A DNA stretch of 39,320 nt from Desulfobulbaceae bacterium (GTDB taxonomy: Bacteria; Desulfobacterota; Desulfobulbia; Desulfobulbales; Desulfocapsaceae), in assembly GCA_008933635.1 (NCBI GenBank), contig WBUQ01000025.1, forward strand, positions 1 through 39,320, given 5' to 3'. Positions 27,239 to 39,320 of this stretch are shown one piece after another. Within the stretch, counting starts at the first letter, position 1, and each line of letters opens with the position of its first letter. The position numbers were made by a program, and so were the translations under genes. The notes beneath the pieces are model-generated. The model searched no databases and was not told where the DNA came from. It saw nothing but the letters and a program-made list of their open reading frames with translations.

Positions 27239-28471
27239 ATGAATGCAATCGGAATTGGCTACGGCAACGACCAGGACACCTACAGGCTGGGGCAGCGTGT
27301 GGCGGAGGCGGCACTGCAATCCGGCGGTATCGGCCGGCCCGATATGCTGATCGCTTTCTGCAGCGGTCATGGCGACCTGGGGCAATTCCATGCAGGACTC
27401 CGATCCGTCACCGGAGAAGCGACCCCGATCATCGGCGGCTCGTGCCTCGGGGTTATAACCGGCACCGAACTCTCCTACCATGGCTGCCCCGGGGCGGCTG
27501 CCGCAATACAGTCGGACTCGATCCGATTCGCAGTCTCGTCGGCCGGCGGCATGGATCGCGACGAGGCCCTGGCAGGCAAAGAGATGATCGATGCCCTGCA
27601 GCTTTCACCGGCCGACAGGCTTCTGCTGCTCTTCTACGATTCGATCCACACCCCGGCAAGCCCATCCGGCCCGCCGGTTCTCAACTATTCAGCGCCGCTG
27701 TTGCACGGAATCGAAGAGAGGCTGAAAGGCCGTGTGCCGATATTCGGCGCCGGCCTTATGGGAGATTACAATTTCGGGACAACGCAGCAGTTCTGCGGCT
27801 TTCGGGTGGATACCCAGCAGGTTGTCGGCTGCATGGCCGCCGGTGATTTCTTCGTCTACAACACGATCATGCATGGCTGCATCCCGCTCGACGGGGTCTA
27901 CCGCCGGATCACCAGGATGAAGGACGATATCATCCACGAGCTGGACGGCCAGCCGGTTGTCCCGATTATCGATCGGCTCTTCGGCAGCACCCGATGGCAG
28001 GAAGAACGCCCGATCATCAGCAATCTGACGATCGGGGTCAATCATGGGAACCGTTTCGAGAAACCCGACGAATCCCACTACGTCAACAGGCTCATCACCG
28101 GCGTCGTGCAGGGCGGGGCCGGAATCGGCATGTTCGAAGCCGACCTCGATGTCGGCCAGGAGATCCAGTTCATGATCCGCGACAACGGGATGATGATGCA
28201 GTCCGTCCGCGACAACGTCCCGGCGGTCATGGCCAGGATCGAATCCGAGGGCAAAAGGCCCTTTTTCGCCCTCTACATCGATTGCGGTGGTCGGACGGCG
28301 GAACAATCCGTCACGGAAGGCGAGGAAGCGGCAGTGATACAGAACGTGATGCAGAAAGCCGGGGTCCCGTTCCTGGGATTGTATTCCGGGGTGGAGATCG
28401 CCCCGATGCTGGGCAGAAGCCGTGGTCTGGACTGGACCGGCGTCCTCATCATCCTGGCGGAGAACGCCTGA
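27239..28471 (+). CDS. FIST domain sensory protein
   Basis: The 410-residue soluble protein has the FIST_N (about 5-215) and FIST_C (about 225-385) pattern: LIAFCSGHGDLGQF, TPIIGGSCLGVITG, RLLLLFYDSIH, PIFGAGLMGDYNFG, and the late FLGLYSGVEIAPMLGRSRGLDWTGVLIIL. FIST proteins bind small ligands, proposed to be amino acids, and are encoded beside kinases, cyclases or chemoreceptors. The gene ends one base before the start of a PAS hybrid kinase, so the two are one transcription and probably one signalling unit. The ribosome site (AGGACAG) is modest. Confidence 0.92.
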   Translation: MNAIGIGYGNDQDTYRLGQRVAEAALQSGGIGRPDMLIAFCSGHGDLGQFHAGLRSVTGEATPIIGGSCLGVITGTELSYHGCPGAAAAIQSDSIRFAVSSAGGMDRDEALAGKEMIDALQLSPADRLLLLFYDSIHTPASPSGPPVLNYSAPLLHGIEERLKGRVPIFGAGLMGDYNFGTTQQFCGFRVDTQQVVGCMAAGDFFVYNTIMHGCIPLDGVYRRITRMKDDIIHELDGQPVVPIIDRLFGSTRWQEERPIISNLTIGVNHGNRFEKPDESHYVNRLITGVVQGGAGIGMFEADLDVGQEIQFMIRDNGMMMQSVRDNVPAVMARIESEGKRPFFALYIDCGGRTAEQSVTEGEEAAVIQNVMQKAGVPFLGLYSGVEIAPMLGRSRGLDWTGVLIILAENA

Positions 28472-28472
28472 C

Positions 28473-31043
28473 ATGAGCGGAAAGGGTTCAAAGACGGAGG
28501 CCCTGGAGAAAGCGCTCGCCAATCTCGAGGCTGAACGGGATTACTATCGCCTGGTTGCCGAACGGCTTGGCCGGAAAGCCCTGGCCGACGCCCAGGACTT
28601 TTCCCGGATGATCCGGGACCTCCGGCGGAGGGAAGCGCAGCTCCACAAGGACCGGGCAGAACTCGAGAAAACCATAGCAGAACGCACCGCGGAGTTGGTG
28701 ACGCGGAATGCAGAACTCAGCGAGAGCACCCGGCGCTACGACAATCTGGTCAAACAGATCCCGCACGGCGTCTATACCCTGCGAATCGGGAACTCTGGCA
28801 GCATGCGGTTTGATTACCTGAGCCCGGTTTTCTGCGAGATTCTGGACATCGACCCTGAAGCGGTGCGGCGTGACGCAGACCTCGCCTTTTCCCATGCCCA
28901 CCCGGATGACCGCGGGGCACTGGACCACTCTGCGCGCGAGGCCACCAGACGCTGTGCCCCCTTCCGCTGGGAAGGCCGGTTCGTCATCCGCCAGGAAGTC
29001 CGCTGGATCAGGCTCGAGGCCGATCCGGCCGCGACCCCGGCCGGCGATGTTGTCTGGAACGGGGTTCTCAGCGATATCACCGAACGGCGGCGCATCCAGG
29101 ACAAACTGAAAGAGAGCGAGGAACGGCTCACCTTCCTCATCAAGAACTCATCCGACAGCCTGGTCATCCTCAACAGCGACGGGAGCCAGAGGTTCGTCAG
29201 CCCTGCGGCGGAAAGAATAACCGGATACCCGGTCAGTGAACTGGAAGGCAGGACACTCGACACGATCATTCACCCGGATGATCTCGAAGAGGTCAGAGCG
29301 GCCTGGAATGAGGCTGTCGAGCATCCCGAGAAGACCGTCACCGTCCGGTACCGGCATATCCATAAGACCAGGGGTTGGGTCTTCTCGGAGGCAATCGCCC
29401 AGAGCTTTCTGGCGGAACCTGCGATCAACGGCGTCATCGCCAGCGTCCGGGACATCACCGAGCGCAAACAGGTGGAAGATTCCCTGCGGGAGCAGCGCTG
29501 GCGCCTGGAACGCATCATCGAAGGCACCAATGTCGGCACATGGGAATGGAACGTCCAGACGGGAGATGTCATCGTCAACGAACGCTGGGCGCAGATGATC
29601 GGCTATACGCTGGCCGAGCTGGCACCCGTCAGCATCAAGACCTGGGAGATGCTGTGCCACCCGGATGACTTGCAACGCTCCGTCGCATTGCTGGAACACC
29701 ATTTTTCCGGCAATCAGCCGTACTATCACAACGAATCCAGGATGAAGCACAAGGACGGTCACTGGATCTGGATCCTCGATAGCGGCCGCGTTGTCACCCA
29801 TACCGGAGACGGCAAGCCGCTGCTGATGTTCGGCACCCATTCCGACATCACCGACCGCAAGAGGATGGAGGAACAACGGGAGAAGTTCGAAGCGCTCAAT
29901 CGCCAGATCCATAAGGCGGAGAGCCTGCACCGCATGGCCGGGGCGATCGCGCATCACTTCAACAACCAGCTCGGTGTCGTGATGGGGAATCTGGAGCTGG
30001 CCCTTGATGAGCTGCCGCGGGAAACGGCACCGGCCGAGAGCGTGGCGGCTGCCATGCAGGGAGCCCTCAAGGCGGCTGAGATCAGCGGCCTGATGCTCAC
30101 CTACCTGGGGCAGACGAGCGGCAGGACTTCACCGCTGAACCTGACCGAGATCAGCCGCAAAACCCTGCCACTCATCCAGACCACCGCCCCCGGGGACCTG
30201 CTCCTCGCCGTCGACCTGTCGGACCCTGGTCCGACAGTCAACGCCAATGAGAACCAGATCCAGCAGATTCTCACCAATCTGGCCACCAACGCCTGGGAGG
30301 CCTGCGCGGACCATGGTTCCGTGAGGATAACCGTCAGAGAGGTCCGGCAATCCGACCTCCCTGCCTCACACCGTCTCCCGGTCGACTGGCAGCCGTCGGA
30401 CCCTGCCTATGCCTGCCTGGAGGTGGCTGACACCGGCAGCGGGATCACGGACGAGGATATCGACAGACTCTTCGATCCATTTTTTTCCAGCAAATTCCCA
30501 GGCCGCGGCCTGGGCCTCCCGGTGGTGCTGGGAATTGTCAAAGCCTATGGCGGCGCGGTCTCGGTCGAAAGCGAAGTGGGACGAGGGAGCACCTTTCGCG
30601 TCCTGCTGCCTGTATCTGCCGATACGGCATCCCCTCAGACATTGCAGGTGGACAGAGCGATCCCGGAAGCAATGAGCGGAACGGTGCTGCTGGTGGAAGA
30701 TGAAGAGCTGATGCGGGAGACAACCAGAAGAATGATCGTCCACCTTGGGTTTGCATGTCTGGTGGCTAAAGACGGCGCCGAAGCGGTGAGCATGTTCCGC
30801 CAGCATGCCGACGACGTTGACGTTGTCCTCTGCGACCTCAGCATGCCGCGCATGAACGGCTGGGAGACGGTGTCGGCCCTGCGGCGGATCCGTCCAGGCA
30901 TACCGGTGGTCCTGGCCAGCGGCCACGACGAGTCCAGGGTCTTCGCGGACGGCCAGCATGACCAGCTCCAGGGCTTCCTCCACAAACCCTATCACCAGGC
31001 CTTGCTGAAGGACACGCTGGCCAGGGCGATGAAGACGGCCTGA
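28473..31043 (+). CDS. Triple-PAS hybrid histidine kinase, partner of the FIST protein
   Basis: The 856-residue cytosolic protein opens with a coiled coil (about 5-88), then three PAS/PAC domains (about 90-215, 218-345 and 345-470). A short coiled coil leads to the phospho-acceptor His494 in AIAHHFNNQLG; the usual Asp after the His is His495 here. The HATPase domain has LTNLATNAWEAC, DTGSGITDED and GRGLGLPVVLG. A receiver domain (about 735-850) has phospho-acceptor Asp788 in VLCDLSMPRMNG and Lys in FLHKPY. GGCGGAG lies upstream of the ATG at 28473. It probably relays the FIST ligand signal together with PAS inputs, but its downstream target is not in the window. Confidence 0.92.
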   Translation: MSGKGSKTEALEKALANLEAERDYYRLVAERLGRKALADAQDFSRMIRDLRRREAQLHKDRAELEKTIAERTAELVTRNAELSESTRRYDNLVKQIPHGVYTLRIGNSGSMRFDYLSPVFCEILDIDPEAVRRDADLAFSHAHPDDRGALDHSAREATRRCAPFRWEGRFVIRQEVRWIRLEADPAATPAGDVVWNGVLSDITERRRIQDKLKESEERLTFLIKNSSDSLVILNSDGSQRFVSPAAERITGYPVSELEGRTLDTIIHPDDLEEVRAAWNEAVEHPEKTVTVRYRHIHKTRGWVFSEAIAQSFLAEPAINGVIASVRDITERKQVEDSLREQRWRLERIIEGTNVGTWEWNVQTGDVIVNERWAQMIGYTLAELAPVSIKTWEMLCHPDDLQRSVALLEHHFSGNQPYYHNESRMKHKDGHWIWILDSGRVVTHTGDGKPLLMFGTHSDITDRKRMEEQREKFEALNRQIHKAESLHRMAGAIAHHFNNQLGVVMGNLELALDELPRETAPAESVAAAMQGALKAAEISGLMLTYLGQTSGRTSPLNLTEISRKTLPLIQTTAPGDLLLAVDLSDPGPTVNANENQIQQILTNLATNAWEACADHGSVRITVREVRQSDLPASHRLPVDWQPSDPAYACLEVADTGSGITDEDIDRLFDPFFSSKFPGRGLGLPVVLGIVKAYGGAVSVESEVGRGSTFRVLLPVSADTASPQTLQVDRAIPEAMSGTVLLVEDEELMRETTRRMIVHLGFACLVAKDGAEAVSMFRQHADDVDVVLCDLSMPRMNGWETVSALRRIRPGIPVVLASGHDESRVFADGQHDQLQGFLHKPYHQALLKDTLARAMKTA

Positions 31044-31137: not shown

Positions 31138-31812
31138 ATGAAGACTCCTGACACGCCATCCAGGTTCCCGGACAATTTCTCCAAGGCGATGATTTTCCTC
31201 CTGGCGGCACTGTTCCTGGGAGTGGCCCTTGCCGTGCCGTTCTATTACGAAACGCAGACGATGTGGTACAAGACCGGTGCCGACAGGATCATGCTCCGGG
31301 CCGGGCAGATGGCGGGCCTGTTCGCCCTTGTCCTGCTGACGGGGCAACTCCTGCTTGCTTCGCGAGTGGGGCTTTTTGAACATCTCTACGGACGCACACG
31401 TCTGCTGCGCTGGCACCAGGCCAACGGGGTGATTATCTTCTGCGCCGTCTGCAGCCATGTGCTTCTGGTACTGGCCCCCGAAGGGTTCGACAACCTGCCG
31501 ATCGGCAAAAAATACTGGCCTGAGATGATCGGCGGGGTGCTCTTCCTCCTGCTCTTCGTCATGGTGGTCACCTCCCGTTTCCGATCGTGGTTCGGCCTGG
31601 AATATGCACGATGGCGAATGCTGCATAAACCGCTGGGCTACCTCTGTCTTGTGCTCGCCTTTCTCCATGTGCGCTTTGTCAGTGAATCGTTTGCCCGGGG
31701 ATTGCCGAGAACGGTGCTGATCGCCGTCGGTATTGGCCTGGCGCTGTTCATCGGCCTTGTGCAGGTGCTGCGGCGGACCCCGGGAAGAGCACAAAGCGGC
31801 CCGCAGCCCTGA
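31138..31812 (+). CDS. Ferric reductase-like transmembrane protein (bis-heme, no flavin domain)
   Basis: The 224-residue protein has five to six membrane helices. Four histidines, His93 (RWHQANG), His107 (CSHVLL), His163 (MLHKPLGYL) and His177 (AFLHVRF), are spaced in two pairs of 14, the b-heme ligand pattern of the ferric reductase-like/NOX core. The FAD and NAD domains of full ferric reductases are absent, so electrons must come from a partner. GGGGAGAGACG precedes the ATG. It may start the following cluster or be independent; a hairpin lies across its stop codon. Confidence 0.85.
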   Translation: MKTPDTPSRFPDNFSKAMIFLLAALFLGVALAVPFYYETQTMWYKTGADRIMLRAGQMAGLFALVLLTGQLLLASRVGLFEHLYGRTRLLRWHQANGVIIFCAVCSHVLLVLAPEGFDNLPIGKKYWPEMIGGVLFLLLFVMVVTSRFRSWFGLEYARWRMLHKPLGYLCLVLAFLHVRFVSESFARGLPRTVLIAVGIGLALFIGLVQVLRRTPGRAQSGPQP

Positions 31813-31897: not shown

Positions 31898-32686
31898 ATG
31901 ACAGCCTCGTCCTCGCACCCCCTCTGCCCGCAACGCCTGCCCCTCGCCGGGGCCGTCAATTTCCGCGACCTCGGCGGCTACCGGACCGGTGATGGCCGCC
32001 AGGTGAAGCGCGGCCTGGTCTTTCGCTCCGATCATCTGTCCCGCCTGACTGCGGAGGATCAACGGATGCTGCAGCGTCTCCGGCTGAGGACGGTCTGCGA
32101 TCTGCGCACCGCCCTGGAGCAGCGGCGGAATCCCAACCTCCTGCCGCAGGATGGTTCGATCCGCCTGCTCCCCCTGCCGGTCCAGGCGGGGAACTTCGAC
32201 CCGGCCCTGGTCATGGACCGCCTGCGGGCCGGAGAACGCGACTGGCTGACCCTCGATTTCTTCATCGACGTGTACCGGCAGTATCTCGACGATTGCGGTC
32301 CGGTCTGGGGCAGGGTATTGCGGCTCATTGCCGCTCCCGCGAATCTGCCCCTGGTCTTCCACTGCACCGGCGGCAAGGATCGCACCGGGATCTGTGCGAC
32401 CCTGCTGCTGCTGACCCTGGGGGTGGGGGAGGCCGACATCTTCCTCGACCATGAGCGCTCCAACGCTTGCAATGCCGAGCGCCTGCAACCGATCTACGCC
32501 CGGTTCGCCGACCTGGGCATCGGGCCTGAGCAGGCCGCCCCCTACCTGCAGGCCCCCCGGGAGCCCCTGGCCGCGATGCTGGCGCATCTGCACAGATCCT
32601 ACGGCACGGTCGACAACTACCTGTTGTCCAGGACCGGGCTGGATCAGGAGACCATCGTGGCCCTGCGGACAAACCTGCTCGAATGA
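31898..32686 (+). CDS. Tyrosine phosphatase-like protein (Y_phosphatase3 family)
   Basis: The 262-residue protein has the VNFRDLGGY signature (20-28), RSDHLSRLT, and the P-loop HCTGGKDRTG with nucleophile Cys156 and Arg162. This family includes protein-tyrosine and lipid or small-molecule phosphatases. I choose the ATG at 31898, with AAGGAG six bases away. An in-frame ATG at 31844 has a perfect but close AGGAGGTGAT and would add 18 residues. Its stop overlaps the start of the CDP-alcohol phosphatidyltransferase gene (ATGA), so a role on a phospholipid or phosphorylated intermediate is plausible but inferred. Confidence 0.87.
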   Translation: MTASSSHPLCPQRLPLAGAVNFRDLGGYRTGDGRQVKRGLVFRSDHLSRLTAEDQRMLQRLRLRTVCDLRTALEQRRNPNLLPQDGSIRLLPLPVQAGNFDPALVMDRLRAGERDWLTLDFFIDVYRQYLDDCGPVWGRVLRLIAAPANLPLVFHCTGGKDRTGICATLLLLTLGVGEADIFLDHERSNACNAERLQPIYARFADLGIGPEQAAPYLQAPREPLAAMLAHLHRSYGTVDNYLLSRTGLDQETIVALRTNLLE

Positions 32687-33909
32687 CACCCTCATCCACC
32701 CCTGCCGGCCAGAACGACAATGCCCCGGCCCGGCGAGCGCCGGCTAGGGTGCCGTGGCCCCTGCGCCGGCAGGCGTGGCTGGCCGCAGCCCTTTTGTTCG
32801 GTCCCTGGCTGGCGACCCTTTTCCTCTGCAGCACCCATCTCCCCCCGCACCCCCTCGCCGTCTCGCTGCTGTTGCCGGGACTCATCGCGGCCATCTATCT
32901 GCAGCTGCGGCTGGCATCCCATCTGGGCGCCAATCACCGGTGCGGCGAAGCGGACCGGCTCTTCCCCACCCTGGGGATCGCCAACTGGATCACCCTGCTG
33001 CGCGGCGCGGCGGTCGTCGCCCTGGCCGGTTTCCTGCCCGTGGCCGTCCTTCCGGTTGCGGCGCGGCCGGCACCCCTGGCCTGGGCGCCGGGACTGATCT
33101 ACCTGGGCATCTCACTGGCCGATCTGCTGGACGGTTTTGTCGCCCGCAGGCAGCACCGGCAGACCGAACTCGGCCAGCGCCTGGATATCGAGACCGACGC
33201 CGCGGGACTGCTGGCGGCCCTACTGGTGGCCGTCAGCCTTGACCGGCTGCCTGCATTCACCCTGCCGGTGGGGCTGGCCTATTACCTCTTTCTCTTCGGC
33301 ATCCGGTGGCGCCGGCAGCGGCACCTGCCCCTGGTCGCGCTGCAACCGCGGCCCTCTTCGCGGATCATCGCCGGCTTCCAGATGGGAGTGGTGGCCGCGG
33401 CGCTGCTGCCCCTCTTCGATCCGCCCTTCACCTCCATCGCCGCCGCTCTCGTGATGGCGCCGCTCCTCGCAGGCTTTGGCCGGGACTGGCTGGTGGTTTC
33501 CTGCCGGCTGCATGTTGACGGCAACCAGCGCACTGCCCTGGATCGCTGGGCAGGCCTGGTTCTGGCCCGTCATCTTCCCCTGCTGCTGCGCCCGTTCCTC
33601 CTGGCCGGCGGCATCCTGCTTCAGGGCGCCGTATCCGTTCCGCATCCAGCCTGGCTGTGGGCACAGGGCATCTGCTGCCTGCTGGCCGGAGCCGGCTGGA
33701 TGGGCCGCTCTGCAGCGCTGCTGCTCGCCCTGCTGTTGAGTTGCGGTCTGGCCCCTTACGGGACCGGACTTCCGGTGCTGGTCCTTTTCGGCCTCGCCAC
33801 CGCCCTGATGCTCACCGGCACCGGCCCGCTGTCCCTCTGGTCCCCGGAAGAGGCAATCCTCTATCGCCGCAGCCGGGACGGAGCCCCGGCAGGGAGCGAG
33901 AAGACATGA
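32683..33909 (+). CDS. CDP-alcohol phosphatidyltransferase with long membrane C-terminus
   Basis: The 408-residue membrane protein contains the complete CDP-alcohol phosphotransferase motif: Asp147, Asp150-Gly151, Ala154-Arg155, Gly164, Asp168 and Asp172. It is preceded by the typical LGIANWITLLRGAA segment. The enzyme exchanges CMP of a CDP-linked donor for an alcohol acceptor at the membrane. Common members are about 200 residues; here roughly 230 additional residues with several helices follow the motif, and about 90 precede it. The ATGA overlap with the phosphatase gene and another with the next gene show tight coupling. The acceptor alcohol is unknown. Confidence 0.9.
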   Translation: MTPSSTPAGQNDNAPARRAPARVPWPLRRQAWLAAALLFGPWLATLFLCSTHLPPHPLAVSLLLPGLIAAIYLQLRLASHLGANHRCGEADRLFPTLGIANWITLLRGAAVVALAGFLPVAVLPVAARPAPLAWAPGLIYLGISLADLLDGFVARRQHRQTELGQRLDIETDAAGLLAALLVAVSLDRLPAFTLPVGLAYYLFLFGIRWRRQRHLPLVALQPRPSSRIIAGFQMGVVAAALLPLFDPPFTSIAAALVMAPLLAGFGRDWLVVSCRLHVDGNQRTALDRWAGLVLARHLPLLLRPFLLAGGILLQGAVSVPHPAWLWAQGICCLLAGAGWMGRSAALLLALLLSCGLAPYGTGLPVLVLFGLATALMLTGTGPLSLWSPEEAILYRRSRDGAPAGSEKT

Positions 33910-34970
33910 TCGGGCGTGCCGCATCATCTGCTGCGGGCTTTCTCAGCCCGCGCATCGGCTGGCGCGGACTGCTGCTGATTGCCGGCCTGGCCCTCGCCTG
34001 GCTGGCGTTGCACGGGATGCCTTGGGAACAGGCGTGGGGACAGGTGACCGGGATGGGTATCGGCGCCCTCCTGAGCGTGCTGGGGCTCAATCTGGCGATG
34101 CTGCCGCTGATGACCCTCCGCTGGTGGCAGCTCCTGCGGGCGCTGGCCGCGCCGGTCAGCCTGCGCACAGTCTGCGCCTATCGCCTGGCCGGCAACGCCA
34201 TCAGCTACCTCACCCCAGGGCCCCATTTCGGCGGCGAGCCGCTGCAGGTCTATCTCCTGCGCCACCGTCAGGACATACCGCTGCCTGCAGCCGCGATCTC
34301 GGTCGCCCTGGAGCGGCTGCTCGAGCTCTGGGCCAGCATGGTGGTCCTGGGTTCCAGCCTGATCGTGCTGACGGTTGCGGGCAGCGGGCCCTTTGCCGGG
34401 AGATGGGCACTTCCCCTGGCTGTCGCCCTGGCGGCCGCCGTCGCCGCTCTGCTGGCTGCCCTGTGCATGGGCAAACGCTCCCTCTCCCGCGCCTGCTCCT
34501 GGTTGATGCGGTTCTGCGGCATGGCCCATCGCCCGCCCACCGGTTTCGCCGGACGACTGCTGGATGGTCTCATCCAGGCCGAGATCCTGAGCGAATCCCT
34601 GCTGCGCCGGCACCGGCGGGCGTTCCTGCTGGCCAACCTCTGTTCCCTTGGCCACTGGCTCGGGGTCTTCGCCGAATTCTGGCTGATGGCGATCCTGCTG
34701 GGACATCCGCTGTCGTTGCCGCAACTGCTGACAGTCGTCATCGCCGCCCGCCTGGCCTTTCTCGCCCCCCTGCCGGCAGGTCTCGGCGTTCTCGAATCGA
34801 CCCTGCCCTGGACAACCGCCGCCCTGGGCCTGGGGAGCGTCCCAGGTCTCAGCCTCTGCCTGCTGATCCGGGTCCGCGACATCCTCTTCAGCCTGGCCGG
34901 CCTGGGATTGACCATGAAATATTTGACTTGTCCGGACAGGGCCGGTACTCTGGCTAAAGATGCAGGATGA
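33906..34970 (+). CDS. LPG-synthase-type membrane (flippase-like) protein
   Basis: The 354-residue protein has about eight membrane helices and the LPG_synthase_TM / AglD-like (UPF0104) motifs: LAGNAISYLTPGPHFGGEPLQVYLL, given here only in part as NAISYLTPG and GGEPLQ, then VALERLLEL, and the C-terminal APLPAGLGVLESTLPW. Members are proposed flippases or membrane parts of lipid-modifying enzymes; this one lacks the aminoacyl-transfer domain of MprF. The ATG at 33906 overlaps the preceding stop. Paired with a CDP-alcohol phosphatidyltransferase it suggests synthesis and translocation of a special lipid. Confidence 0.87.
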   Translation: MIGRAASSAAGFLSPRIGWRGLLLIAGLALAWLALHGMPWEQAWGQVTGMGIGALLSVLGLNLAMLPLMTLRWWQLLRALAAPVSLRTVCAYRLAGNAISYLTPGPHFGGEPLQVYLLRHRQDIPLPAAAISVALERLLELWASMVVLGSSLIVLTVAGSGPFAGRWALPLAVALAAAVAALLAALCMGKRSLSRACSWLMRFCGMAHRPPTGFAGRLLDGLIQAEILSESLLRRHRRAFLLANLCSLGHWLGVFAEFWLMAILLGHPLSLPQLLTVVIAARLAFLAPLPAGLGVLESTLPWTTAALGLGSVPGLSLCLLIRVRDILFSLAGLGLTMKYLTCPDRAGTLAKDAG

Positions 34971-35105
34971 CAGGACTCGGGCGAAGGGCGTATCTCCGCT
35001 GAACCGTCCGGGGCCAGGCCGTTTCTCTCTGCGCGCCCGCACTGTGTTCCGGTGCGGCTCGGTGCATCCACCGTCCCCTTGCAAGGAGGGCAATCTCGAC
35101 ACACC

Positions 35106-35876
35106 ATGCTGCGTCAAGATCCCCGTCCCCCCATATCCGGCACCAGCGCCAGCAAGGTCGACCCGGAGCAATGGTTCGACCAGTTGCCGACTCTGGCCGC
35201 ACAGTTCCTGGCCGAGCACCGCCGGCCGCTGGTGACGGTTTCCTATGCCCAGAGCGTGGACGGCAGCATCGCCACCCGGAACCGGGAACAGCTCCGGCTG
35301 AGTGGCCACCAGTCGATGGTGGTCACCCATCGCATCCGCGCCGCCTGCGACGCCATCGTCATCGGCATCAACACCCTGCTGATCGACGACCCCCTGCTCA
35401 CCGTCCGTCTCGCCGAAGGGCCCAACCCCCAGCCCATCGTCCTTGACAGCCACCTGCGCATCCCCCTGCAGGCCCGCCTGCTTGAACGGACCGACCTTGG
35501 CTGCTGGGTCGCCTGTACAGAAAAGGGGGATCCCGGGCGCATCGGCGCGGTGGAAAACCGGGGCGCCGAGGTCATCCGCTGCCGCCACGACCGTCAGGGC
35601 CGGGTGGACCTGCCGCATCTGCTCCAGCAGCTTGGCGAGAGAGGGATCTGCAGCCTCATGGTCGAAGGGGGCGGCCAGGTGATTTCGAGCTTCATCGAGG
35701 CGCGCTTGGCGGATCAGATGATCATCACCATCGCCCCACGTCTGGTTGGCGGCCTGCCGGTGCTGGACCGGCCGGCCGTGCGCAACGGGGCCCTGCTGCA
35801 CCTGACCACCGTGACCTACCAGCCCTGCGAACCGGACCTCATTCTCTGGGCCCGGCCGCAATGGCAGGACCCATGA
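35106..35876 (+). CDS. RibD C-terminal-type reductase
   Basis: The 256-residue protein matches the RibD reductase/dihydrofolate reductase fold: VTVSYAQSVDGSIATRN (44-60), the cofactor segment DAIVIGINTLLIDDPLLTVR (82-101), SLMVEGGGQVISSF and IAPRLVGG. In riboflavin synthesis this family reduces a ribosylamino-pyrimidine phosphate with NADPH. The deaminase domain is absent and no other riboflavin gene is near, so it probably reduces a related pyrimidine or pterin precursor. The ATG at 35106 is chosen; AAGGAGG lies rather far upstream (15 bases), and a GTG at 35052 is an alternative. Its stop overlaps the next start (ATGA). The 135-base gap before it has no recognised FMN riboswitch. Confidence 0.88.
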   Translation: MLRQDPRPPISGTSASKVDPEQWFDQLPTLAAQFLAEHRRPLVTVSYAQSVDGSIATRNREQLRLSGHQSMVVTHRIRAACDAIVIGINTLLIDDPLLTVRLAEGPNPQPIVLDSHLRIPLQARLLERTDLGCWVACTEKGDPGRIGAVENRGAEVIRCRHDRQGRVDLPHLLQQLGERGICSLMVEGGGQVISSFIEARLADQMIITIAPRLVGGLPVLDRPAVRNGALLHLTTVTYQPCEPDLILWARPQWQDP

Positions 35877-36907
35877 TGCGGCACCGGCTGGAATTTCTCG
35901 CCCCCGGCCGGGTCGCGGTGCGCGAGGGTCCGGCACCGCAGCCGGCTTTGGACCAGGTGCTGGTGCAGACCCGCTTCTCCGCGATCAGTCCCGGAACCGA
36001 GATGCTGGTGTACCGTGGGCAGTGGCCGCAGGGGGTCACGGTCGACGCCACCCTGGAGAGCCTGGCAGGCACCTTTGCCTATCCCCTGGCCTACGGCTAC
36101 TGCACGGTCGGCCGGGTGATCGCGGCAGGACCGGCGGTGGCCGGCGACTGGCCGGGTCGCCGGGTCTTCGCCTTCCATCCCCATGAAGACCTCTTCTGCG
36201 CCCGACCCTCGCTTCTGCACCCCATCCCCGATGACCTGGACGACGAGACCGCCCTCTTTCTTCCCAACATGGAGACCGCGGTCAACCTGATGCTGGATGG
36301 CGCGCCCCTGATCGGCGAACGGGTGGTCGTCATCGGCCAGGGCATCGTCGGGCTGCTCGCCACCGCCCTGCTCGCCCGTTTTCCGCTGGCGTCCCTCACC
36401 ACCCTCGAATCGCACCCTCTGCGGCGCACCGCCTCGCTCCGCCTCGGCGCCTCCCAGTGCCTCGATCCTGCAGATCCGGACCTTGACAACCTGCTGGGCG
36501 CCATTCCCTGCCAGGGCGGCCAGGCGGATCTGGTCTTTGAGCTTTCCGGCAACCCGGCAGGCCTGGACACGGCGCTGGCGGCGACGCGCCCCAGCGGCCG
36601 GGTGGTGATCGGCTCCTGGTACGGCAGCAAAAAGGCCGACCTGGATCTCGGCTCTTTCTTCCATCGCGGCCGTCTCACCCTGATCAGTTCCCAGGTGAGC
36701 GGCATCGCCCCCGCGCTCTGGGGCCGGTGGCAGGCCCATCGCCGCCTGGAGGTGGCCTGGGAGATGCTGCGCCAGGTGCAGCCCCGGACCTGCATCACCC
36801 ACCGCTTCGCCCTGGCGGATGCCGCCGAGGCCTATGCGCTGATTGACCGCTGCCCAGGCGAGACCATCCAGGTCATCTTCGAACACCCTTCCGCGCACGC
36901 GCGGTGA
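35873..36907 (+). CDS. MDR (zinc-type alcohol dehydrogenase-like) oxidoreductase lacking zinc ligands
   Basis: The 344-residue protein has the medium-chain dehydrogenase layout: an N-terminal GroES-like domain with SAISPGTEMLVYRG (36-49), a Rossmann motif VVIGQGIVG (152-160), and FELSGNPAGLDTAL. The catalytic Cys of the usual CGTD and the His of GHE are replaced (SPGTE and YGYCTVG), and the four-Cys structural zinc loop is missing. The overall pattern resembles BchC-like and sorbitol dehydrogenase-like zinc-free members. It is an NAD(P)-dependent oxidoreductase of unknown substrate. The start at 35873 overlaps the RibD-like stop. Confidence 0.87.
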   Translation: MMRHRLEFLAPGRVAVREGPAPQPALDQVLVQTRFSAISPGTEMLVYRGQWPQGVTVDATLESLAGTFAYPLAYGYCTVGRVIAAGPAVAGDWPGRRVFAFHPHEDLFCARPSLLHPIPDDLDDETALFLPNMETAVNLMLDGAPLIGERVVVIGQGIVGLLATALLARFPLASLTTLESHPLRRTASLRLGASQCLDPADPDLDNLLGAIPCQGGQADLVFELSGNPAGLDTALAATRPSGRVVIGSWYGSKKADLDLGSFFHRGRLTLISSQVSGIAPALWGRWQAHRRLEVAWEMLRQVQPRTCITHRFALADAAEAYALIDRCPGETIQVIFEHPSAHAR

Positions 36908-36928
36908 CAACCTGCAAGGAGCCACAAC

Positions 36929-37306
36929 ATGTACAGTCTCGGGATGCGGCGGGAGTTCAGCGCCCGGCATTATCTGATCGGCGGCGACTGGGGTGCGGAA
37001 AACAGCGAGCATGCCCATCGCTATCGGCTGGAGCTGGTCCTCGAGGCCCCGAACCTGGACCGGCACGGCTACCTGGTCGATATCGTCGAGGTGGAACAGC
37101 ACCTGGCGGCGGTGATCGCCGACTTTGCCGGCCGCACCCTCAACGACCTCTCCGACTTTGCCGGCCAGAACCCCAGCATCGAACGGCTGGCCACCATCCT
37201 CCATGGCGCCTTCAGGGCACGCTTCGTCCATCTCCGGCTCGAGGCCCTGACCGTCACCCTCTGGGAGGATGACATCGCCTGGACCTCCTACCGGGCGCCC
37301 CTCTGA
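36929..37306 (+). CDS. 6-pyruvoyl-tetrahydropterin synthase/QueD-fold protein with altered active site
   Basis: The 125-residue protein has the T-fold pattern of PTPS/QueD. Zinc ligands are His14 (FSARHYL), His28 and His30 (HAHRYRLE). The pterin-anchoring Glu113 (VTLWED) and the NPSIERLA segment are present. The catalytic Cys of CxxxHGH is Glu24 here, HGH reads HAH, and the Asp-His pair usually before LN is Ala67-Gly68. A Cys-to-Glu change is known in PTPS-III enzymes that cleave dihydroneopterin triphosphate, but the lost Asp-His goes further. It should still bind zinc and a pterin; the reaction is uncertain. AAGGAGCCACAAC precedes the ATG. The stop overlaps the glycosyltransferase start by one base. 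Confidence 0.85.
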   Translation: MYSLGMRREFSARHYLIGGDWGAENSEHAHRYRLELVLEAPNLDRHGYLVDIVEVEQHLAAVIADFAGRTLNDLSDFAGQNPSIERLATILHGAFRARFVHLRLEALTVTLWEDDIAWTSYRAPL

Positions 37307-38436
37307 TGCGCATCGGCCTGGTCATCTACGGCAGCCTGGAGACCCTGACCGGCGGCTACCTCTATGACCGGATCGCGGTCGAAGGCCTGGAGCGGCTGGG
37401 CCATGAGGTGGAGGTGATCGGTCTCGCCGGCGGCCCGTATCTCTCCCGGCTCGGGCATGGCTTGACGCCCGGCCTCTGCCGGCGGCTGCTGGACGGCCGG
37501 TTCGACATCCTTCTGCAGGACGAACTCTGCCATCCCTCACTTTTCTGGCTGAACCGCCGCCTGCGCCACCTGCACGGGCCGCCGCTGGTCGCCATCGTCC
37601 ATCACCTGATGTGCCGGGAACCGCGGCCCCGGTGGCTCAACCGGCTCCTGGAACTGGTTGAGCGGCGGTACCTGGCCTCGGTGGATGGCTTCATCTTCAA
37701 CTCGAAGACCACCGCCAGGACGGTAACGGCACTGGTGGGCGAGGCTCAGCCCCATGTCGTCGCCTACCCGGCCGGAGACCGGTTCGGTATCCCCCTCTCC
37801 CCTGACAGCATCAGCCAGAGAGCCCGCCGGCCAGGGCCTCTGCAGTTGCTCTTTCTGGGCAGCGTCATCCCCCGGAAAGGCCTGCTGCCCCTGCTCGGCG
37901 CCCTGGCCGGAGCAGACCGCGAGCTCTGGCGGCTGACCGTGGTGGGCAGCCTCGAATTCGACCCCGCCCATGCCGCCGCGGTCCGTGAACGGGTCGATGA
38001 GCTTGGGCTGGCCGACGCGGTCCGGTTCGTCGGCCCGTGCTCGGGTGAGAACCTGGTGGAGATCATGTCCGCCAGCCACCTGTTCTGCATGCCTTATGCC
38101 TATGAGGGGTTCGGCATCGCCATTCTTGAGGGCATGGCCTTTGGCCTGCCGGCCATCGGCTGCCGGGACGGTGCGGCCAACGAGACCATCGAGCACGGGA
38201 GCAACGGCTTTCTGCTGGCGGCCGACGACCTGGTGGGACTGGCGCCGCTTGTGGTGCGCCTGCAGCACGATCGCGAGGCCCTGCTGCGGCTTTCCCTTGC
38301 CGCCCGCCAGACCTGTGCCGGCCGTCCCGGCTGGCAGGACAGCGTGGCCGTAATAAACGCCTTTCTGGCGGAGATGCAGAGCGGACACGCACAGGCAAAA
38401 ACCGTCGCGCCGGGGAGTGGCCATGGAGGCGGATAA
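37306..38436 (+). CDS. Family 4 glycosyltransferase
   Basis: The 376-residue GT-B enzyme has an N-terminal GGYLYDRIAVEGLERLGHEVEV segment (only GGYLYDR and GHEVEV quoted as key parts), the donor-domain start LFLGSVIPRKGL, and the EX7E motif from Glu267 to Glu275 (EGFGIAILE), followed by GLPAIGCRDGAANE and GSNGFLL. It transfers a sugar from a nucleotide-sugar with retention. It is coupled to the PTPS homologue by a TGATG overlap, which recalls cyanobacterial pteridine glycosyltransferases. The acceptor may be the pterin-like product or a lipid; this is inference. Confidence 0.91.
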   Translation: MRIGLVIYGSLETLTGGYLYDRIAVEGLERLGHEVEVIGLAGGPYLSRLGHGLTPGLCRRLLDGRFDILLQDELCHPSLFWLNRRLRHLHGPPLVAIVHHLMCREPRPRWLNRLLELVERRYLASVDGFIFNSKTTARTVTALVGEAQPHVVAYPAGDRFGIPLSPDSISQRARRPGPLQLLFLGSVIPRKGLLPLLGALAGADRELWRLTVVGSLEFDPAHAAAVRERVDELGLADAVRFVGPCSGENLVEIMSASHLFCMPYAYEGFGIAILEGMAFGLPAIGCRDGAANETIEHGSNGFLLAADDLVGLAPLVVRLQHDREALLRLSLAARQTCAGRPGWQDSVAVINAFLAEMQSGHAQAKTVAPGSGHGGG

Positions 38437-39320
38437 TCTGGCCGGTGGCAGGCCGGCTCCCAAGGTGGCGGACGACTCCGGGACCGGTTTCGATCCCCGC
38501 TACCTGGCCGCCAAGAAATCCATCGATGACCGGGCCTTGAATCGCCATGTCTGGGCCGCGCTCCGCCAGGCCCTGCCGCAGGCGACCGGCGCTGCCCCCG
38601 CAAGCATCGTCGAGGTCGGCGCCGGCATCGGCACCATGCTGGCGAGAACGGTCGACTGGGGGTTGCTGAGCGGACCGGCGACCTACCTGGCCACCGACTG
38701 CGATGCCGGCCATCTCCGCCTCGCCCGGCGCTACCTTGGAGCCTGGGCCGAAGAACGGGGCCATACGCTGAATTGGCCGGAAAGGCAGCGCGGCCTCCTG
38801 TGCACCGCACAGGCCGAGATGGCCGTGGTTCTCGAGGCGGTCCGGGCCGAAGAGATGGCCTGCCGGGCCGAATCCGCAGGCACCTTCCACCTGCTCATCG
38901 CCCACGCCGTGCTGGACCTGATCGACCTGCCGGCCGTACTGCCGGGCCTCCTGTCGCTGCTCACCGACCACGGGCTGGCCTATCTCACCTGCAACTTCGA
39001 CGGCACCACCCTCTTTCTGCCCGAACACCCTGGCGGGGAAGAACAGGAAATCCTGAGGCGCTACCATGCCTCCATGGAGGCGCGGCATGCCGGGGCAAGC
39101 CGCACCGGCCGGCGGCTGCTGACCATGCTGCAGGGTCCGGGTTGCGAACTTGTGGCGGCCGGCGGATCGGACTGGGTCATCCACCCCCGGGACCATGCCT
39201 ACACCGAAGATGAAGCGCTGTTTCTCCATGCCCTCGTCGCAGGGGTGGAGCAGGAACTTGCCAGCAACAGCGGCCCCGCGCCGCCGGGCCTTGCCGCCTG
39301 GGCCCGCAGCCGGCACCGGC
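38423..39320 (+). CDS. SAM-dependent methyltransferase (runs off the right end)
   Basis: A frame from the ATG at 38423 stays open to the end of the window (299 codons), so the 3' end is missing. The N-terminus FDPRYLAAKKSIDDRALNRHVW and SIVEVGAGIGTML (SAM-binding GAGIG at 66-70) mark a class I methyltransferase. Later come ATDCDAGHLRLARRY and LIAHAVLDLIDL. The start overlaps the glycosyltransferase end by 14 bases, and the last codons of that gene contain GGAGTGG as a ribosome site. It probably methylates an intermediate of this cluster. A different frame (38773-39213) is a shadow. Confidence 0.88.
   Translation, partial: MEADNLAGGRPAPKVADDSGTGFDPRYLAAKKSIDDRALNRHVWAALRQALPQATGAAPASIVEVGAGIGTMLARTVDWGLLSGPATYLATDCDAGHLRLARRYLGAWAEERGHTLNWPERQRGLLCTAQAEMAVVLEAVRAEEMACRAESAGTFHLLIAHAVLDLIDLPAVLPGLLSLLTDHGLAYLTCNFDGTTLFLPEHPGGEEQEILRRYHASMEARHAGASRTGRRLLTMLQGPGCELVAAGGSDWVIHPRDHAYTEDEALFLHALVAGVEQELASNSGPAPPGLAAWARSRHR

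Follow-up and report, generated by a model that had tools for sequence, protein, structure and literature searches.

What might eight tightly packed genes make when they join enzymes of GTP-derived pyrimidine and pterin chemistry to enzymes of phospholipid head groups, sugar transfer and methyl transfer? The question is raised by a 39,320-nucleotide stretch from a Desulfobulbaceae bacterium (GenBank assembly GCA_008933635.1, contig WBUQ01000025.1) – here called the window, which is the whole of this contig (C182 in our numbering) – in a draft genome of 4.5 Mb whose named close relatives are metagenome assemblies of Desulfobulbaceae and Desulfocapsaceae. The gene set is a real conserved unit rather than a row of accidental neighbours, and its product is very probably a pyrimidine or pterin derived from GTP. 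We see about an even chance that the genes form one biosynthetic cluster whose product is a reduced pterin (or diaminopyrimidine) made from GTP, bearing sugar and methyl groups and, in the lineage of the window, probably attached to a phospholipid. The eight genes, which an earlier note on this DNA had assigned to these families and to one strand, were all located through open reading frames and Pfam; they run along the + strand from 31898 as far as the contig reaches:

31898–32686, + strand: Y_phosphatase3-type (PTP-fold) phosphatase (PF13350, 1e-60)
32683–33909, + strand: CDP-alcohol phosphatidyltransferase, CDP-OH_P_transf (PF01066, 3e-14)
33906–34970, + strand: LPG-synthase-TM/flippase-like integral membrane protein (PF03706, 7.5e-32; TIGR00374 over cut-off)
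35106–35876, + strand: stand-alone RibD_C pyrimidine reductase without a deaminase domain (PF01872, 7e-43; TIGR00227 over cut-off)
35861–36907, + strand: NAD(P) oxidoreductase of the medium-chain dehydrogenase/reductase (MDR) family, ADH_zinc_N, BchC/polyol-dehydrogenase-like (PF00107, 1e-10; bchC the best NCBIfam hit, sub-threshold)
36929–37306, + strand: PTPS/QueD-fold protein, judged to be of a distinct subfamily (PF01242, 1e-21)
37306–38436, + strand: glycosyltransferase family 4 (GT4) enzyme (PF00534, 5e-26)
38417–39320, + strand: class I S-adenosylmethionine (SAM) methyltransferase, truncated at its 3' end by the end of the contig (weak Pfam hit; fold predicted for a full-length relative)

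Neighbouring frames overlap by 4 bases at the phosphatase/CDP-alcohol transferase junction and again at the CDP-alcohol transferase/flippase junction, by 16 between RibD_C and MDR, by 1 between PTPS and GT4 and by 20 between GT4 and the methyltransferase; 21 bases separate MDR from PTPS, and the claimed spacer of 135 bases is indeed present between flippase and RibD_C.

That these families belong together was the central expectation of the earlier note, and it is borne out by a comparison of neighbourhoods. A scan with a PTPS alignment gave 218 loci, 80 of which were retained and, with three haloarchaeal loci, make up 83 PTPS neighbourhoods, in which families were counted within 8 kb of each PTPS gene. 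GT4 occurs at 74 of them, MDR at 68, the SAM methyltransferase at 58, RibD_C at 49, the flippase at 37, the CDP-alcohol transferase at 30, the GTP cyclohydrolase RibA at 26 and Y_phosphatase3 – seen in Desulfobacterota clusters only – at 9. Restricting the comparison to loci whose flanks extend 6 kb or more upstream and 4 kb or more downstream leaves 49, with counts of 43 for MDR, 43 for GT4, 38 for the methyltransferase, 31 for RibD_C, 27 for the flippase, 23 for the CDP-alcohol transferase and 17 for GTP cyclohydrolase II. These recurrences reject a chance neighbourhood, and the families co-occur across phyla and in both bacteria and haloarchaea: homologous PTPS loci were found in Desulfobacterota, Chloroflexota, gammaproteobacteria, spirochaetes and haloarchaea, and Streptomyces has a matching set. 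Strong matches came from 7 of 36 genomes of the bacterium's own family, 15 of 297 Desulfobacterota (the window genome counted) and 20 of 301 Chloroflexota, or about 5% and 7% of the sampled genomes of the two phyla. Pairwise distances of the gene families correlate, with r between 0.5 and 0.96, values that no more than 1 label permutation in 200 reached.

The closest relative (78–89% protein identity) has the same gene order, followed by genes for a membrane protein of 532 residues with a sulfatase fold and for a YceI protein. The gene for the former, with its sulfatase/LtaS-like domain, lies directly 3' of the methyltransferase in most Desulfobacterota loci and at 13 of the 83 loci overall (for example, L034 3214–4812, L035 9300–10898 and L044 from 12493), and it is probably the ninth gene of the window locus, missing through the contig end. 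When all open frames were clustered as connected components – which also gave antisense shadow groups, disregarded here – the next commonest family on the sense strand was a small membrane protein, at about 15 loci; a DUF7475-like small membrane protein adjoins RibA or the flippase in Chloroflexota clusters (L115 6159–6569, L078 6097–6504 and 11 further loci).

The entry into the pathway is its best-supported part. Of the clusters compared, 26 hold a complete GTP cyclohydrolase II (RibA) that adjoins the RibD_C gene or is fused to RibD_C, with fusions at 14 loci, among them that of Methylotuvimicrobium buryatense 5G, and all 26 of these RibA proteins have the three zinc Cys residues and Tyr105 (E. 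coli numbering). Three Haloarcula clusters hold an unrelated GTP cyclohydrolase III in RibA's place (PF05165, 272 bits for one of them). The Streptomyces fungicidicus cluster combines a GTP cyclohydrolase II bearing Met105 with a creatininase, and a creatininase is also found near the set in Haloarcula sinaiiensis and H. marismortui. In S. coelicolor SCO6655, Met at this position reportedly halts the reaction at the formylated pyrimidine, and we take the Streptomyces cluster enzyme to be of this formyl-retaining type; relatives of creatininase (ArfB) take off the formyl group in archaea. Our best argument for a diaminopyrimidine intermediate is that different enzymes lead to the same compound. 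The GTP entry chemistry is well supported, and the earlier suggestion of a pyrimidine or pterin derived from GTP now has the backing of GTP cyclohydrolases inside homologous clusters.

In the window lineage there is no local cyclohydrolase, and the single RibA of the genome is encoded on another contig (C231). The nearest solved relatives of the window RibD_C protein are RibD and archaeal pyrimidine reductases. Pfam finds in it RibD_C only, not the deaminase and reductase of bifunctional RibD; in this it resembles ArfC/Rib7 and the C-terminal domain of RibD. It differs from ArfC/Rib7 in adjoining MDR and PTPS genes and in being fused to GTP cyclohydrolase II in many bacteria, and it scores under the cut-off of the archaeal pyrimidine reductase equivalog. 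Riboflavin is served by a separate RibD, represented by another RibD_C match in a frame of 379 residues on contig C30. FolE1 was not found in the window genome, and its absence was for a time taken to support a route free of GTP cyclohydrolase I; this argument was dropped after two FolE2 hits on other contigs.

Judged by its conserved residues, the PTPS-like protein is a distinct subfamily and not QueD. In an alignment of 84 sequences, His14, His30 and Glu113 are present in all 84, and position 28 varies between His (68 sequences) and Asn (16); Glu24 occupies the position of the QueD Cys in every sequence, with no Cys before HxH. Asp51 and an NPSxE motif are likewise invariant, and the Asp–His pair is lost, its positions being variable. 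The zinc His triad and the pterin-pocket Glu, together with a fold match to QueD/PTPS (template-modelling score about 0.8–0.9), place the protein among the T-fold proteins of COG0720. Among the matches to its predicted structure (predicted local distance difference test, pLDDT, 93.7), SCO6650 of Streptomyces coelicolor (PDB 3d7j) comes first and QueD next. With QueD it shares the T-fold, the zinc His residues and the pterin-pocket Glu, but the catalytic Cys, the Asp–His pair and the CxxxHGH motif of QueD/PTPS-I are absent, and it reaches 40.5 bits under TIGR03367, the cut-off of which is 89.25. Nor do the 84 sequences contain the CxxxxxHGH motif of the biopterin enzymes (PTPS-II) or the ExxHGH of PTPS-III: three residues before the first His, 80 of 84 have Asn, and the place of the middle Gly is mostly taken by Ser or Ala (motif definitions for PTPS-I, II and III, including ExxHGH, from PMC5041015). 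The likeness to PTPS-III, the folate-bypass enzyme of the Plasmodium type, lies in a Glu serving near the Cys position; the window protein has ExxxHxH instead, with its Glu exactly at the position of the QueD Cys.

The nearest published object is SCO6650, which is the best match of the window protein by sequence profile as well as by fold. A related S. fungicidicus gene sits with a CDP-alcohol transferase, MDR, GT4, a SAM methyltransferase, a creatininase and GTP cyclohydrolase II. SCO6650 is said to lack both zinc and PTPS activity; the zinc-binding HxH and Glu24 set the window subfamily apart from the Streptomyces proteins, which have HGAT there and no matching Glu. Within the subfamily, Asn28 (16 sequences, mostly from Chloroflexota) may mark a subtype with another substrate: with shared ancestry left in the comparison, RibA and RibD_C are missing from 10 of 13 well-flanked Chloroflexota clusters with Asn28, against 10 of 48 clusters with His28 from all lineages. 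Two Chloroflexota clusters have a gene of the 2-phosphosulfolactate-phosphatase family directly upstream of PTPS (L086 9248–9955 and L088 9143–9931).

From these families a pathway can be proposed. GTP cyclohydrolase II – for which family and context make a strong case – would open GTP to 2,5-diamino-6-ribosylamino-pyrimidinone phosphate, with the housekeeping RibA as the presumed supplier in the window lineage. At the level of family knowledge, the deaminase-less RibD_C protein would then reduce the ribosyl to a ribityl chain and keep the 2-amino group, so that the ring would stay pterin-like rather than lumazine-like; RibA with such a reductase yields 2,5-diamino-6-ribitylamino-pyrimidinone phosphate. 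The next step may fall to the MDR enzyme, a candidate polyol oxidase in which the usual catalytic-zinc residues are apparently missing and the corresponding region reads S-x2-S-x-G-x-E, with S40, S43, G45 and E47 invariant in the alignment. On chemical grounds, it could oxidise the ribityl 2'-OH, after which the 5-amino group would close on the ketone to give 7,8-dihydroneopterin phosphate without GTP cyclohydrolase I; such a compound would be of the substrate type suited to the PTPS fold, and we hold this exact ring closure to be possible, though less likely than not. The zinc-binding PTPS-like protein, with Glu24 replacing Cys, might next remodel the side chain.

The later steps would attach and decorate the head group. 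The CDP-alcohol transferase motif DxxDGxxAR(x8)GxxxDxxxD is canonical in the window protein and invariant in aligned relatives, and transferases with the canonical motif are found in clusters of Desulfobacterota, Chloroflexota, Thiotrichaceae, haloarchaea (Haloarcula, Natronorubrum) and Streptomyces; a Spirochaetaceae cluster has a PF01066 gene. The motif was absent from 21 QueD control neighbourhoods, which were shorter than the cluster loci. The enzyme is most PgsA-like, though under the PgsA family cut-off, and PgsA acts on a polyol phosphate, glycerol phosphate, before a phosphatase trims the product. By analogy, the window enzyme could transfer a phosphatidyl group to the polyol phosphate, and the adjoining Y_phosphatase3 protein, whose loop HCTGGKDRTG is invariant in relatives, is a candidate for trimming the terminal phosphate left over. 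PlsC-like acyltransferases beside 10 Chloroflexota loci (L063, L070, L071, L082, L086, L090, L094, L105, L115 and L119) are an additional hint of lipid chemistry. The GT4 protein has among its solved relatives MshA, BshA, PimA and tetrahydrobiopterin glucosyltransferase, whose sugar acceptors include phosphatidylinositol, inositol phosphate and tetrahydrobiopterin. The methyltransferase has a conserved N-terminal motif, YLAAKKxxDDRALN, in an alignment of 34 relatives, and a full-length relative is predicted to adopt a methyltransferase fold (pLDDT 91) that matches only generic small-molecule methyltransferases; a sequence search of solved structures gave no match for this enzyme or for the sulfatase-fold protein. 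GT4 and the SAM enzyme might thus decorate the head group, and the flippase-like and sulfatase-fold proteins might export or finish the product. Taken together, the PgsA-likeness, the placement of the phosphatase and the GT4 relatives suggest a glycosylated, methylated pterin phospholipid, although for the lipid-attached form itself we would claim a little less than an even chance. Three unrelated lineages also have FkbM-family methyltransferases near the cluster (L037 10775–11680, L068 7074–7844 and L103 4534–5946, those at L037 and L103 being confirmed by Pfam).

How far the lipid genes belong to the product is where the alternatives diverge. The product might instead be a soluble glycosylated, methylated pterin resembling cyanopterin or limipterin and acting as a cofactor, pigment or redox mediator, with the lipid genes separate or carried along – possible, in our estimate, though on balance unlikely. 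Pterin glycosides are known from cyanobacteria (PMC13259868). Tetrahydrobiopterin glucosyltransferases are among the relatives of GT4, along with many others, and clusters with no CDP-alcohol transferase and flippase nearby do exist, in M. buryatense and several Chloroflexota, which makes a soluble product possible. Since the M. buryatense cluster lacks both, lipid attachment is not universal; the nearest CDP-alcohol motif in that genome, about 11 kb off, was left out of the counts. A genome-wide search (E 1e-6) of 12 genomes with no cluster-type transferase in the flank found no homologue in 4 and a weak one in 5, 2 of which (in Thiotrichaceae and Spirochaetaceae) lie directly beside the cluster; in 3, however, a strong cluster-type homologue is encoded elsewhere, and the transferases recur in both bacterial and archaeal clusters. 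The earlier note had also allowed for two linked operons, one for a membrane lipid and one for a pterin, acting independently. The 135-base spacer and the many clusters that retain the pterin half only would fit this division, but lipid genes recur with pterin genes in several phyla, lying on either side of them or in inverted orientation, and the Haloarcula CDP-alcohol transferase gene adjoins GTP cyclohydrolase III within the MDR–PTPS–SAM run; a single operon is favoured, and independent operons seem improbable.

It is also rather improbable that the product is an uncyclised ribityl-diaminopyrimidine derivative from the riboflavin/F420 branch, with the PTPS-like protein acting on a pyrimidine side chain. 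RibA and RibD_C give exactly that intermediate, and the loss of the QueD Cys and Asp–His pair implies a chemistry unlike that of PTPS; yet the pterin-pocket Glu and NPSxE are invariant, and the cluster constantly includes a PTPS-fold enzyme. A queuosine, folate, biopterin or riboflavin pathway in another arrangement, finally, is scarcely credible. Annotation pipelines do label the cluster PTPS as '6-carboxytetrahydropterin synthase, queuosine biosynthesis', but the QueD equivalog and all three PTPS motifs fail, a genuine QueD (99.7 bits against the cut-off of 89.25) is encoded on contig C144, and the genes for entry into riboflavin and folate synthesis are found on other contigs. The earlier observation that genes of these pathways are not in the window holds, a nearby complete queuosine or folate pathway is rejected as an explanation, and the earlier interpretation is supported overall – by the co-occurrence of the families, by the failure of both chance neighbourhood and a known pathway to account for them, and by the GTP cyclohydrolases of homologous clusters.

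Several points weigh against the proposed glycosylated, methylated and lipid-attached pterin. The gene-tree correlation reflects common inheritance, with functional linkage and shared descent unseparated. FolE2 already supplies dihydroneopterin triphosphate, which leaves a second route to dihydroneopterin to be accounted for. Many Chloroflexota loci retain MDR–PTPS–GT4 without RibA and RibD_C, so their precursor must come from elsewhere; the substrate of the MDR enzyme and the position that it oxidises are guesses; and M. buryatense has the GTP part and the methyltransferase with no adjoining cluster-type CDP-alcohol transferase or flippase.

The enzyme families are known, while their combination and product appear undescribed in the literature searched, in which we found no description of this gene cluster or of pterin lipids. 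The cyanopterin and limipterin pathways share the pterin-type core and an expected sugar transfer; they start from GTP cyclohydrolase I, unlike the route proposed for the cluster, and we know of no RibA–RibD_C, MDR or CDP-alcohol genes described for them. A lipid-mounted pterin would be a new kind of molecule, and pterin-headed lipids, redox-active or light-absorbing, would form a new lipid class; as the lipid step is putative, we place the cluster within GTP-derived pyrimidine and pterin biosynthesis. The widest version of the proposal – a widespread pathway free of GTP cyclohydrolase I, common to bacteria and archaea, that begins with GTP cyclohydrolase II or III, proceeds through RibD_C reduction, MDR oxidation and ring closure, and mounts pterins as glycosylated, methylated phospholipid head groups – is speculative and, we think, unlikely to hold in full. 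If the proposal is true, the queuosine annotation of PTPS has masked a conserved metabolite that is made from GTP by a separate route, and the role of SCO6650 would be explained too. Because cultured organisms carry the cluster (M. buryatense 5G, Haloarcula marismortui, Bellilinea caldifistulae and Streptomyces fungicidicus), the product is open to direct search.

Some further genes lie around the cluster. Within the window, a ferric-reductase-like haem membrane protein is encoded 5' of the phosphatase (31138–31812), its homologue at L037 (2616–3959) being a fusion with FAD and NAD domains. Just upstream of the cluster are a FIST sensor-domain protein (27239–28471) and, after it, a long frame (28422–31043) that, judged by eye, resembles a PAS hybrid histidine kinase. 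Genes for proteins of the YceI lipid-binding fold occur near the cluster in 7 Desulfobacterota loci.

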